The notes under the pieces: generated by a model
What the model was told of the DNA's origin: nothing
Database searches by the model: none
Seen by the model: the letters and a program-made list of their open reading frames with translations, nothing else
Made by a program: the position numbers and the translations under genes
Origin: Halobium salinum
GTDB taxonomy: Archaea > Halobacteriota > Halobacteria > Halobacteriales > Haloferacaceae
Direction of reading: 5' to 3'
NCBI RefSeq assembly: GCF_026586625.1
Contig: NZ_JAODIW010000004.1
Span: 1 to 64,000 of the forward strand
DNA: 64,000 bases
Part shown: positions 44,619-51,612 of the stretch, one piece after another
Numbering within the stretch: the stretch's first letter is position 1
Layout of the letters: every line of letters starts with the position of its first letter

Positions 44619-45245
44619 TCAGGCGATGTCGCGGCTGGTGTCGATGGCGACCTCCTCGGCCAGCCGGAGCTTGATGGTCTCCTCCATCGCCGCCCCGCCG
44701 CGGAACTTCGGAACGGCGAGCCGGTTCTCGATTTCGGAGCCCGCCACGTCCGTCTGGAGGTCGAACACCACGTCGGCCATGTGTTCGGTCACGTCCCGGT
44801 TCTCGGGCACCGACCGACCGTTCAGCCCGTGGAGCACCGTCAACCCGCCGGTGTTTATCATGTGCGTCTGGAGTTCGTTGAGGAAGTTCCGGTAGCGCGC
44901 CGGCTCCGCACGCTCCAGGACGTCGACGATGTCGACGATGAGGTTCGCTCCCTCCGGGAGGGCGCGAATGAGGCGGTTCGCGTGGTCGAGCGGGGCGTCG
45001 CTGCCGACGTCTCGGATGGTGGGCTTCCCGGCGCGTCCGGGCGTGCGGTCGATGGCGTCCTGGACCGCCTCGACCGAGCGGACGCTCGTCAGATACAGGG
45101 TCCCGCGCGCCGCGCTCAGCTCGTAGAGGAACAGCTCCGACTGGGAAGCCGGCGTCGCCGACAGGAGGACGATGCTCCCGCTGGGGATGCCGCCGCCGAG
45201 GCGACGGTCGAGCACCGTGATTCCGGTGGGGAGCCGGCCGGTCAT
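44619..45245 (-). CDS. RecA/KaiC-fold (RAD55-like) protein with degenerate P-loop
   Basis: This is a 208-residue protein with the start MTGRLPTGITVLDRRLGGGI, which is the classical entry to KaiC/RAD55 ATPases, but the Walker A site reads LLSATPASQSELFLYEL and lacks the GxxGxGK[S/T] lysine. A Walker B-like strand (GANLIVDIVDVLERA) and the core strands GTLYLTSVRS and LTVLHGLNG are retained, so the fold is probably intact while ATP hydrolysis is doubtful. The C-terminal half (VVFDLQTDVAGSEIENRLAV) matches RAD55-like families of haloarchaea. It starts 6 bp after the stop of the MinD/ParA-like gene, so the pair is one operon. Confidence 0.82.
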   Translation of the reverse strand: MTGRLPTGITVLDRRLGGGIPSGSIVLLSATPASQSELFLYELSAARGTLYLTSVRSVEAVQDAIDRTPGRAGKPTIRDVGSDAPLDHANRLIRALPEGANLIVDIVDVLERAEPARYRNFLNELQTHMINTGGLTVLHGLNGRSVPENRDVTEHMADVVFDLQTDVAGSEIENRLAVPKFRGGAAMEETIKLRLAEEVAIDTSRDIA

Positions 45246-45251
45246 ACGGAG

Positions 45252-45905
45252 CTACTTATTCACGCACGACAATAGGTCTTCCTCCTGTCTGATCTCGTCC
45301 GCGAGTCGGGCGTACGCCGACTGGACGGCGGGCCGGGAGAGCACCGGCGGCTCGACCGGCGGGACGGAGCCGAGGACGGGACAGTCCAACAGTTCGGCGA
45401 CGGCGTCGGGCGCGAGGTGGGTCCGCGTCAGGACGACACCGACCGGCTCCGTTCCGAGGGTCCGAGCCATCGCCGCGGTCTTCGCCGTGTCGCGGAGGGC
45501 CGGCCGGCAGAGCGCCGAGACGAGCAACGCGGCGTCGGCGGCGCGGAGCGCCGCGGCGGCGTCCGGACCCGCGCCGGCCGGGCAGTCGACGAGCGTCGGC
45601 GTCGACGCCGAGGGGGTGAGTCCCGAGAGGAGCGCGTCGAGACCGGGTGCGTCGGCGCGCGAGCCGTCCGGCGCCGGAAGCACGGACACGCCGGGTTCGT
45701 CCGGGTGTGCGTGTGCGACGGCGTCGACCGACCCGCCGTGGGCGTCAGCCAGTGTCGGTGTCGCGTCGACGCCGGCGAGACGGTGGAGGTTGGGCAGGTC
45801 GACGTCGGCGTCGACGACGAGCGTCGGGGAGTCGAGCGCCGCCGCGAGACCGAGCGTCGTCGTGGTCTTCCCGCAGCCGCCCTTCCCCCCGGCGATGGCG
45901 AGCAT
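45252..45905 (-). CDS. MinD/ParA-family ATPase
   Basis: This is a 217-residue deviant-Walker-A ATPase (GGKGGCGKTTTTLGLAAAL at residues ~6-24, with the signature lysine in GGKGG). The A' region is VVDADVDLPNLHRLAGV and the B region is TLVDCPAGAG. It is shorter than typical MinD and lacks an obvious C-terminal amphipathic membrane helix; it ends EDLLSCVNK. The ATG at 45905 starts directly at the first beta strand, and a 26-residue upstream extension is Arg-rich. It forms an operon with a RecA-fold partner. In Haloferax volcanii a MinD paralogue (MinD2) and its co-transcribed neighbour affect cell shape and motility; orthology is not established here. Confidence 0.87.
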   Translation of the reverse strand: MLAIAGGKGGCGKTTTTLGLAAALDSPTLVVDADVDLPNLHRLAGVDATPTLADAHGGSVDAVAHAHPDEPGVSVLPAPDGSRADAPGLDALLSGLTPSASTPTLVDCPAGAGPDAAAALRAADAALLVSALCRPALRDTAKTAAMARTLGTEPVGVVLTRTHLAPDAVAELLDCPVLGSVPPVEPPVLSRPAVQSAYARLADEIRQEEDLLSCVNK

Positions 45906-46010
45906 ACCGTCGGTGGTCCCGTCCTCGGCTTTGAACGTTCGTCCCGAGAGGCGGTGTCGCGGGTCGGCGGCTCGCGGAGACACTAAGCCTCCCGCCGACG
46001 ACTTCGTTCC

Positions 46011-48478: not shown

Positions 48479-48486
48479 GTTTATAC
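48479..48486 (+). promoter_or_regulatory. TATA-like box of the first Mrr-like membrane gene
   Basis: The element gtttatac is centred 29 nt before the ATG at 48511. Confidence 0.55.
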
Positions 48487-48510
48487 TCGGTCCGGGGACA
48501 CGTCCACGGG

Positions 48511-49947
48511 ATGCCAGTCCTCCCCCGCGAGGCGTTCGCCCGACGCCTCGACGCCCTCTCTCCGACCGCCCTCCGCGACTTCGCCGCCGACGTGTGGGCC
48601 GCGCGCGGGTTCGACACCCGCGTCGGCGACGGCGACGACTCACTGACCGTCACCCGGGACGGCGTGGACCGAACCGTCGTCCCCGTCGCGACCCGCCGAC
48701 TCCGCGGACTCAGTTCGGTCCCCGGCGGCGTCGACCCGGACGTGGTCGTCGACGGGAGCGGAACCGACGCCGGTCGGTCGCTCGCGGCCGACCACGACGC
48801 GAGCTACGTCGGTCCCGGGGACCTCTATCACCGCCTGCTGTACGGCGTCGACCGCGAGGTCGCCGCTGGCCTGCTCCATCGTCACCTCGGCGCCCCGCTC
48901 CACGTCGACGAGTCGCCGACGACGCCGGCCGGGTCGACCGACCGGCCGGAACCGACCGCCGGTGACGACGACGGCCGGTCCGGACTCGGTCTGCTCCGCC
49001 GGGCGACCCCCGACGGCGGGGACCTCACCACCGCGCTCGTCGTCGGTGCAGTCGTCGTCGCCGCACTCGTCGTCGGCCTCGGACCGGGGGCGCTCACGGG
49101 ACTCGTCCCCGGCGACGGGACGGGGTCGACGCCCGGCGACCCGGTCGACGTCACGGGGGGACAGACCGGAGTGAACGACACGAACGCGTCCGGGTCGGTC
49201 GGCGCCATCGGCGCGACGCCGGACTACCCGCCCGGATTGTCGCGGGACGGCGTCGACGGCGAGGCGCTGTCCGACGCCCACCACGAGTACCTCTCGAACC
49301 GGTCGTACACGCTGGTCGAGCGAAGCGACGCACCGCATGAGGCGACGCGACGGGACTGGGAACACCATCGGCGGACGGTCCAGCGCGTCGAGAGCGAGAG
49401 CCGGTTCCTCGAGTCGACGCGCGGCTGGCGCACGTTCGAGAACGGAACCGGAGACCGGTTCACCGTCGACCAGTACACGGCGGACGGGCTCTCCGTCTCT
49501 CGGGTGAACGCGTCCGACGAGCCGGTCGAGTACCGGGTGCGCCGAGGACACAGGAACGACCCACGTGGGGCGTCGTGGCGGGTCGAACACTACCTCTCCG
49601 GGGAGAACGCCACCGTAACCGAGGAGGAGACCGCCGACGGCCGGCGGTTCCGGGTCGTCGACCCGTCGCCCCCGACCGACTGGAGGGAGAACGACCGCGT
49701 GACCGTCACCGACTACCGGGCCGAGGCGACGGTCCACCCCGCGGGGTACGTCACCTCGCTGTCGGTCCGGATGACGTTCGAGCGGAACGGGTCGGTCGGC
49801 GAGGGCCGGTTCGTACTCGAGTACGACGACGTGGGGAACACCAGCGTCTCCGAGCCACCGTTCGTCGACGAGGCGCTGGCGAACGCGTCGAACGGAACGA
49901 CACCGGCCCGGACCGAGAACGCCACGGCCACGCCGGCCCCCGAGTGA
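48511..49947 (+). CDS. Membrane protein with Mrr-like cytoplasmic and secreted beta domains, copy 1
   Basis: This is a 478-residue three-part protein. Residues 1-135 (LSPTALRDFAADVWAARGFD, DPDVVVDGS, DLYHRLLYGVDREVAAGLLH) resemble the N-terminal part of haloarchaeal restriction-endonuclease-like (Mrr) proteins, but the usual catalytic D...QxK residues are not evident. Residues ~170-195 form one membrane helix (LTTALVVGAVVVAALVVGLG). The outside domain, after a Gly/Thr linker, starts YPPGLSRDGVDGEALSDAHH and resembles the beta-rich DUF7537-type domain of haloarchaeal lipoproteins, with several N-glycosylation sequons. A close paralogue follows 81 bp downstream. The ATG has a TATA-like box 29 nt upstream. 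Function is unknown. Confidence 0.78.
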   Translation: MPVLPREAFARRLDALSPTALRDFAADVWAARGFDTRVGDGDDSLTVTRDGVDRTVVPVATRRLRGLSSVPGGVDPDVVVDGSGTDAGRSLAADHDASYVGPGDLYHRLLYGVDREVAAGLLHRHLGAPLHVDESPTTPAGSTDRPEPTAGDDDGRSGLGLLRRATPDGGDLTTALVVGAVVVAALVVGLGPGALTGLVPGDGTGSTPGDPVDVTGGQTGVNDTNASGSVGAIGATPDYPPGLSRDGVDGEALSDAHHEYLSNRSYTLVERSDAPHEATRRDWEHHRRTVQRVESESRFLESTRGWRTFENGTGDRFTVDQYTADGLSVSRVNASDEPVEYRVRRGHRNDPRGASWRVEHYLSGENATVTEEETADGRRFRVVDPSPPTDWRENDRVTVTDYRAEATVHPAGYVTSLSVRMTFERNGSVGEGRFVLEYDDVGNTSVSEPPFVDEALANASNGTTPARTENATATPAPE

Positions 49948-50028
49948 ACGCTCCGACTCGGCAGGGAACGCCGGAGGCGGCCCCGAACCACGGAAACCTT
50001 CTACTCCGTTGGGTGTGAACACTTACTG

Positions 50029-51612
50029 ATGCCAGTGCTCCCGCGCGGGGCGTTCGTCGACCGGCTCCGGGACCGCTCGGCGGCCGACCTGCGCGCGCTC
50101 GTCGCCGACGTGTGGGCCGCACGGGGGTACGATACCCGGACCGACGGCGACCGCGTCGTCGCGACCCGGGGCGAGGAGCGGCTGGCGCTGTTTCCGAGCG
50201 TCGGTCGCCGACTGCGCGGGCCGACGCGACCGGCCGGGGACGAGACGGTCGACCTCGTCGTCGACGGCGGCGGCGGCGCGGAGCCGGTCGCGACCGACCT
50301 CGACGCCCGCTACGCCGGCCCCGCGGACCTCTACAACCTGCTGCTGTACGGCGTCGACCGGGAGGTCGCCGCGGACCTGCTCCATCGTCACCTCGATGCC
50401 CCGCTCCAGGTCGACGACGCGACCGCCGCGGCCTACGGCGACACGACGCCGGTGGGTGGCGAGCCCGCGGAGGCGACCTCCCGAGGCGGACCGGGGAGCC
50501 GAGTCCGCGCGGCGCTGGGACGCCTGCGCCCCGACGGGGGCGACGCGGCGACCGTCGTCGCCGTCGGGACCGTCGTCTTCGCGGCCGTCGCGCTCGGGCT
50601 GGGTCCGGGGTCGTTTCTAGGTGTTCTCGGGCTGGACGGGTCGAGCGGCGGCGGAGCGGGCGGCGTGACCGGCATCGGTGGGACGGGCGGCAGTGGCTCC
50701 GGCGCGACCGGTGTCGGCGGGGCGGGCGAAGCGAACGCGTCGGGCGAGCCGAACGAATCGAACGGGACGAACGACTCCGGACCGGTCGGCGCCATCGACG
50801 CGTCGCCGACCTACCCGCCGGGGGTCGACCGGGAGCAAGGGTACGTCGACGTAGAGGCGCTCTCGGCGGCGCACGCCGAGGCCCTCGACGGCCGCTCCTA
50901 CCGGTGGGTCGGCGAACTCGACCGCTCTGGGGCGTTCGGAGACCGCGACGACTGGGACGACATCCGCTGGTCGGAGGTCGTCGAGACCGACACCCGGTAC
51001 CTGACGAACGCGACCGGCGTCCGGGTCGAGGAGAACGGGAACGTCGTCCGGCGCTCCTACGCCAGCTACGCCGACGGCGAGGTCCGCTACCGCCGGGTCG
51101 ACGGTGGAGCGGGGCCGGTACGGTACCACCGTACCTCCGCCGAACCCATCGGGCGCCCGCAGGCGACTTGGGCCATCGAACGCTACCTCGGCGGGAGCAA
51201 CGCCAGCGTGAGCCGGCTCGAGACGCGCGAGGGCCGCTTCTACCGGGTGACCGTCGCGGACCCACCGCCGGGCGACGAGGAGCTCCGGCGGGCCGCGGAG
51301 TACCAGGCGACCGCCTACGTCACCGGCGAGGGGTTCGTGGTGGCGCTGCGGGTCACGTACACCCTCTCCGAGGGGGAGGAGACCGGGCGGGTCCGGTACC
51401 GGTTCGAGTACGACCGCGTGGGCGAGGCGTCCGTCGACGAGCCACCGTGGCTCGACGAGGCGCTCCGCCGGACCGCGGGACGACAGAACGGCGGGACGAG
51501 CGGCGAGTCGACCTCGTCGGCGACCGCTGCCTCGTCCGGGAACGCAACGACGGCCGCGAACGTCACGCGAACGGCGAGTGGGGCGGCGAACGCGACGACG
51601 ACGACGAACTGA
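50029..51612 (+). CDS. Membrane protein with Mrr-like cytoplasmic and secreted beta domains, copy 2
   Basis: This 527-residue paralogue of the preceding protein has the same order. The Mrr-like N-terminus (DRSAADLRALVADVWAARGY, then DLYNLLLYGVDREVAADLLH) is followed by one membrane helix (~165-190, AATVVAVGTVVFAAVALGLG), a long Gly/Ser-rich linker (SGGGAGGVTGIGGTGGSGSG) and the secreted beta domain (IDASPTYPPGVDREQGYVDV, YRWVGELDRSGAFGDRDDWD). The Ser/Thr/Ala-rich tail (SSATAASSGNATTAANVTRT) looks like a glycosylated stalk. A TATA-like aaaccttct lies 29 nt upstream of the ATG. Copy 2 keeps the fold but diverges in the linker. Confidence 0.78.
   Translation: MPVLPRGAFVDRLRDRSAADLRALVADVWAARGYDTRTDGDRVVATRGEERLALFPSVGRRLRGPTRPAGDETVDLVVDGGGGAEPVATDLDARYAGPADLYNLLLYGVDREVAADLLHRHLDAPLQVDDATAAAYGDTTPVGGEPAEATSRGGPGSRVRAALGRLRPDGGDAATVVAVGTVVFAAVALGLGPGSFLGVLGLDGSSGGGAGGVTGIGGTGGSGSGATGVGGAGEANASGEPNESNGTNDSGPVGAIDASPTYPPGVDREQGYVDVEALSAAHAEALDGRSYRWVGELDRSGAFGDRDDWDDIRWSEVVETDTRYLTNATGVRVEENGNVVRRSYASYADGEVRYRRVDGGAGPVRYHRTSAEPIGRPQATWAIERYLGGSNASVSRLETREGRFYRVTVADPPPGDEELRRAAEYQATAYVTGEGFVVALRVTYTLSEGEETGRVRYRFEYDRVGEASVDEPPWLDEALRRTAGRQNGGTSGESTSSATAASSGNATTAANVTRTASGAANATTTTN

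Follow-up and report, generated by a model that had tools for sequence, protein, structure and literature searches.

Two tandem genes of Halobium salinum, P0001 and P0002 (478 and 527 aa), encode predicted one-pass membrane proteins, each built of an N-terminal domain of ~130 aa that descends from Mrr nucleases and is classified here as catalytically dead, one transmembrane (TM) helix, and an outside domain with a predicted LolA/LppX-like fold (Table 1). Both proteins belong to a haloarchaeal family in which the same N-domain and TM helix are combined with different outside domains. Our tentative reading, to which we give not quite an even chance, is that P0001 and P0002 are one-pass receptors whose dead Mrr module has been reused inside the cell for binding or signaling.

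Table 1. Features of the P0001/P0002 locus; positions refer to the window, i.e., the whole 64,000-nt stretch of DNA that was analyzed.
Feature	Position	Strand	Evidence
DUF7125 KaiC-like protein and MinD-like ATPase, near the YlbF-family gene	44622-45242, 45255-45968	-, -	
YlbF-family gene, head-to-head with P0001	47799..48338	-	Pfam PF06133 E 7e-21
TATA-like box TTTATACT, start 31 bp upstream of P0001 ATG	48480..48487	+	sequence; putative function
P0001, ORF	48511-49947	+	
P0001 N-terminal cytosolic domain, predicted catalytically dead, trimmed Mrr/REase-like, aa 1-134	48511..48912	+	profile matches, hhalign, AlphaFold2, catalytic columns
P0001 TM helix, aa 172-193, LLRRATPDGGD just before	49024..49089	+	hydropathy
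P0001 extracellular LolA/LppX-like domain (DUF7537), predicted	49216..49878	+	Pfam PF24381 E 5.5e-10, AlphaFold2, Foldseek
TATA-like box TTCTACT, start 30 bp upstream of P0002 ATG	49999..50005	+	sequence; putative function
P0002, ORF	50029-51612	+	
P0002 N-terminal Mrr-like domain, predicted dead, paralogue of that of P0001	50029..50421	+	profile A1 E 1.6e-41
P0002 single TM helix	50545..50613	+	hydropathy
P0002 extracellular LolA-like domain, divergent DUF7537, predicted	50803..51465	+	profile A3 E 2.9e-55 (P0002 itself a member of A3)

The original prediction of a gene duplicated side by side was borne out. Both ORFs were confirmed at their positions, and the duplication is considered genuine, since the N-domains of the two proteins are 54–56% identical and group together as sisters (support 99/99) in the N-domain tree; the outside domains are 36–38% identical. 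Relatives in the genomes G183 and G267 are present as a single copy in a matching neighborhood. The dN/dS ratio between the tandem copies is 0.65 for the N-domain and 1.13 for the outside domain, and the latter is not taken as a sign of positive selection, since the outside domains share only 38% identity and dS is unreliable at high GC content. A TATA-like box is located 30–31 bp upstream of each ATG, and thus each gene may be transcribed separately into a leaderless transcript, the box positions being read in the light of what is generally known of haloarchaeal promoters.

Hydropathy analysis of 45 ORFs, taken from 40 loci as well as from the window, showed a strong TM segment directly C-terminal to the N-domain, in agreement with the expected single membrane helix between a cytoplasmic and an outside part. 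The exceptions are an extra marginal stretch in L111 and a second, C-terminal TM segment in L092. N-glycosylation sequons are 3.7-fold enriched in the outside regions (219 vs. 58.8 expected from composition), whereas 3 sequons vs. 4.5 expected were counted in the N-domains, including none in those of P0001 and P0002, and 85 vs. 81.8 expected in the neighboring genes that served as background. Since the TM segment follows rather than precedes the N-domain and sequons are enriched only past it, the N-domain probably resides inside the cell and the C-terminal domain outside.

Recognition of the Mrr resemblance of the N-domain required profile methods, since no Pfam family covers residues 1–140 of P0001 or P0002 even at E = 10. 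Mrr_cat (PF04471) has no match at E = 10 in either the full-length proteins or their N-domains, so its curated cut-off is missed; direct searches of NCBIfam and PHROGs with the N-domain gave no match, and a profile search of PDB sequences gave no credible one. A single-sequence search already reached L021, a genuine Mrr protein (E 2.8e-5), and the profile A1, which comprises 25 N-domains and no Mrr sequences, matched mainly Mrr proteins beyond its own family. One of them (G144:C16:65680) is matched by A1 at E 7e-10 and by Mrr_cat at 1.6e-30. Among the 20 weaker A1 matches that were fetched, 17 satisfy a stringent pattern for the Mrr active site, another has an active site judged intact by eye (L148, SLDV...QAK), and two are inactive (L140 and L142); TM helices are present in 14 of the 18 active proteins and are nearly always C-terminal to the nuclease domain. 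The hhalign comparison of A1 with 13 haloarchaeal Mrr sequences gave 96% (E 1e-8), and 0.0–0.1% was obtained for six controls (five column-shuffled and one reversed). By these profile comparisons the family N-domain is homologous to Mrr nucleases, and the Mrr-like N-terminus that had been proposed is well supported.

More generally, many haloarchaeal Mrr nucleases that appear to be active carry TM helices at the C-terminus (L065, L073, L063, and L133–L149). In two other haloarchaeal proteins lacking a TM segment (L081 and L142), an inactive Mrr-type domain is located C-terminally, after long acidic helical regions.

The AlphaFold2 model of the N-domain (25 sequences; pLDDT 89.7, pTM 0.83) contains the elements H18-31, E35-38, E45-49, E52-59, E78-81, H86-94, E98-100, H102-112, and H115-126, corresponding to an alpha-beta-beta-beta-beta-alpha-beta-alpha topology. 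We read this predicted order as a trimmed version of the restriction-endonuclease core, without alpha2. A Foldseek search of the model against the PDB gave no significant match, the best being HindIII (E 0.23). Entries that we take to be restriction-endonuclease-like (HindIII, terminase nuclease, XisH, archaeal-type Holliday resolvase with prob 0.77, EndoMS, Cap4, and Hachiman) are frequent among the top 50 matches, each being individually insignificant. The original proposal would be refuted by a predicted structure without a PD-(D/E)XK-like fold at the N-terminus, an outcome that did not arise; the element order of the model fits such a fold in a trimmed form, while Foldseek by itself would not establish it.

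According to the joint alignment, the beta1-beta2 loop, the site of the catalytic Asp in Mrr, is ~6 residues shorter in the family. The D...[Q/E]xK signature is kept in none of the 45 members, each of which retains at most one of the three catalytic positions. The lack of catalytic residues, first noted for P0001 and P0002, hence extends to every member examined, and on the alignment we classify the N-domain as a catalytically dead Mrr domain. It carries no recognizable DNA-binding motif, and a surface for binding nucleic acids may have been lost with the trimming. The dN/dS ratios of the N-domain, which are rough because of GC bias, vary between 0.35 and 0.65 and are below 1 in all seven pairs, and hence suggest moderate purifying selection. 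A comparison of net charge as a hint of DNA binding was dropped, since the background gene set had been charge-filtered.

The outside domain of P0001 matches DUF7537 (PF24381) with 35.4 bits, above the cut-off of 31.7, and that of P0002 scores 19.1 bits, below it; among 30 relatives, 11 have a DUF7537 match at E 0.01. The AlphaFold2 model of this domain (30 sequences, pLDDT 91.1) is similar to the LolA-type structure 4mxt (Foldseek E 1.6e-5, prob 1.00) and to LprF (E 2.8e-4), with a weak match to VtrA/VtrC (5kew, E 0.024). The TM-scores against LolA-like structures (0.38–0.42) indicate fold-level similarity only, and at this level the model points to a lipid-carrier fold of the LolA/LppX type. 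The same genome encodes a LolA-like domain behind a lipobox signal peptide (C11:393933-394664, ...LLTAGC), so the outside domain is, as anticipated, of a type found in haloarchaeal lipoproteins.

The survey of the domain combination in other genomes agreed with a modular design, the N-domain and TM helix recurring across Halobacteria with at least five kinds of outside domains. The outside regions were grouped by BLAST into DUF7537-like (30), DUF4864 (5, among them L018 with a Pfam E of 2.7e-7), a third type (6), a fourth type (2), and a PQQ propeller with CARDB (1, L092). On the N-domain tree, three label changes are required for the third type even when only well-supported branches are counted, the deep tree being weak; thus, pairing of the module with outside domains probably occurred at least twice. 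An inactive Mrr-type domain and a TM segment are joined to a DUF4352-type outside domain in two proteins, L079 and L140 (Pfam E 2.8e-5 in L079, just under the DUF4352 cut-off; assigned by eye in L140). The inactive domain of L079 is still above the Mrr_cat cut-off (35.2 vs. 21 bits). By their sequences, these proteins are intermediates that bridge the active membrane-anchored Mrr nucleases and the receptor-like family. In one further family ORF (L100:3486-5531, +), the outside domain appears to go out of frame soon after the PPGV motif, which reflects either a pseudogene or a sequencing error.

The family is present in at least 63 of 292 Halobacteria genomes (A1 matches listed, E ≤ 1.4e-14), and the phylum sample contains no family match outside the order at E 1e-6; within the sample searched, it was thus found only in Halobacteria. 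A peptide-pattern scan of genome contigs with P0001 recovered no relatives, the family being probably too divergent for such a search. Among 25 family-bearing genomes, 14 have a family gene located head-to-head with a YlbF gene at a distance of up to 2.4 kb (G000, G183, G267, G336, G200, G214, G342, G271, G188, G275, G144, G306, G060, and G238); these genomes represent ~8 genera, are not independent, and were picked partly for carrying the family. The YlbF-DUF7125 neighborhood also occurs without a family gene (G132, G076, G104, and G158). DUF7125 itself was found in 28 of the 29 genomes searched and is close to YlbF in many of them, including ones that lack the receptor-like family. The YlbF protein of Bacillus is part of a complex that directs a nuclease involved in RNA processing; given this role, the pairing of YlbF with a dead nuclease is curious.

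If P0001 and P0002 are receptors, the LolA-like domain would most likely bind a hydrophobic or lipid-linked ligand outside the cell, and binding would be relayed via the single TM helix, probably by altered oligomerization. The cytosolic domain would derive from a membrane-anchored Mrr nuclease that lost the active-site loop, the catalytic residues, and helix alpha2, and would now serve as a binding module contacting a cytosolic partner or DNA. Together with the TM helix, it would form an output module common to different sensors (DUF4864, PQQ propeller with CARDB, and two unnamed types), and the variety of outside domains on the same N-domain and TM helix fits the expectation for such a module. 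The signal transduction originally suggested is consistent with this architecture. The anatomy of the proteins, comprising Mrr ancestry, loss of catalysis, topology, LolA-like fold, and modularity, is well supported by sequence and prediction, whereas signaling itself, with its ligand binding, signal transfer, and identity of the output, is inferred.

The main rival to the receptor reading is an anchored carrier without signaling, in which the dead Mrr-like domain only holds, positions, or dimerizes the protein, and the LolA-like domain carries lipids or lipoproteins. We consider it possible, if somewhat doubtful. The outside domain alone is encoded in the same genome as a lipoprotein with a lipid anchor, its nearest folds are the carriers LolA and LprF, and many haloarchaeal Mrr proteins are already membrane-anchored, so that a fusion could have inherited the anchor. 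However, a lipobox or a bare TM segment would suffice for anchoring, yet a domain of ~130 aa with conserved helices has been kept, with dN/dS below 1 in every pair compared, and it is paired with several unrelated outside domains.

Defense sensing, also raised by the original prediction, would imply that virus contact is detected at the envelope and that the nuclease-like domain triggers an intracellular response. This idea did not hold up well and appears very unlikely: Mrr nucleases are parts of restriction systems, and PADLOC models match the active relative L021, but P0001 and P0002 have no match in PADLOC, PHROGs, or the plasmid search, their neighbors are housekeeping genes, the chromosomal position beside YlbF is conserved in ~8 genera, and no effector partner was seen. 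It seems hardly credible that the N-domain has kept nuclease activity by way of a rearranged active site. Enzymes with the restriction-endonuclease fold can relocate their catalytic residues, and D is found at the aligned Asp column in a few members; on the other hand, no acidic or lysine position is conserved in place of the lost residues, conservation of ≥90% being reached only at A31, L105, and Y111, and, in addition, the Asp-bearing loop is shortened and alpha2 is missing. The receptor reading can be widened to propose a class of haloarchaeal receptors with exchangeable outside sensors that share a former membrane-anchored restriction nuclease as their intracellular output module, dispense with both kinase and helix-turn-helix domains, and work with a divergently encoded YlbF in many genomes; in this full form, we regard it as unlikely.

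The closest known relatives of the N-terminal half are the Mrr proteins (PF04471), in particular the haloarchaeal ones with a C-terminal TM segment, which have the same element order and place the TM segment after the nuclease domain. The P0001/P0002 family differs from them by the absence of D...[Q/E]xK, the shortened loop, the loss of alpha2, scores below the Pfam cut-off, and the addition of a large outside domain. The latter resembles LolA, LppX, and LprF as well as the DUF7537 haloarchaeal lipoproteins, but, unlike these free or lipid-anchored proteins, it is joined via the TM helix to a domain in the cytosol. Dead folds retained as non-enzymatic modules are also represented by the inactive REase domains of NA-iREase1 (PF22722), which has no match in P0001 or P0002, and of the Orc/CDC6 ATPases, which contain a dead iREase domain (PMC10853773). 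Hence, reuse of a dead restriction-endonuclease fold is not new; those domains, however, are cytosolic parts of NTPase conflict systems, whereas here the domain is the cytosolic portion of a protein that spans the membrane once. A cytosolic module, a membrane segment, and an outside sensor are likewise combined in VtrA/VtrC, where the lipocalin-like barrel of VtrC senses bile acid, in CadC (PMC9214523), and in the archaeal ArnR (PMC6396743), but these have a helix-turn-helix DNA-binding domain, rather than a dead nuclease, as the cytosolic module.

Within the open-access literature searched, subscription papers being outside its scope, no earlier description of an inactive membrane-bound Mrr or of DUF7537 was found, and the placement of the dead fold in a one-pass membrane protein whose outside domains can be swapped appears to be new. 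If signaling is true, the family would represent an archaeal class of transmembrane receptors with interchangeable outer sensors, the inner module of which is a pseudo-nuclease, neither a kinase nor a helix-turn-helix domain. The receptor-like family is carried by at least a fifth of the sampled haloarchaeal genomes and is missing from the libraries of domains that were searched. The sampled proteins form a series that leads from active Mrr-TM proteins via inactive Mrr-TM-DUF4352 proteins to the family, and this series documents how an enzyme can turn into part of a receptor.

Different kinds of outside domains adjoin different operons, i.e., those of an ABC sugar transporter, CcdA, and YlbF/esterase. 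Four members with the third type of outside domain (L083, L094, L095, and L110) are located next to a sugar ABC transporter operon, and the neighborhood of L095 also contains an isopropylmalate/isocitrate dehydrogenase-like gene. A CcdA-like gene (thiol/cytochrome c biogenesis) adjoins the family members L115, L116, and probably L118, being preceded by a lipoprotein gene in L115.
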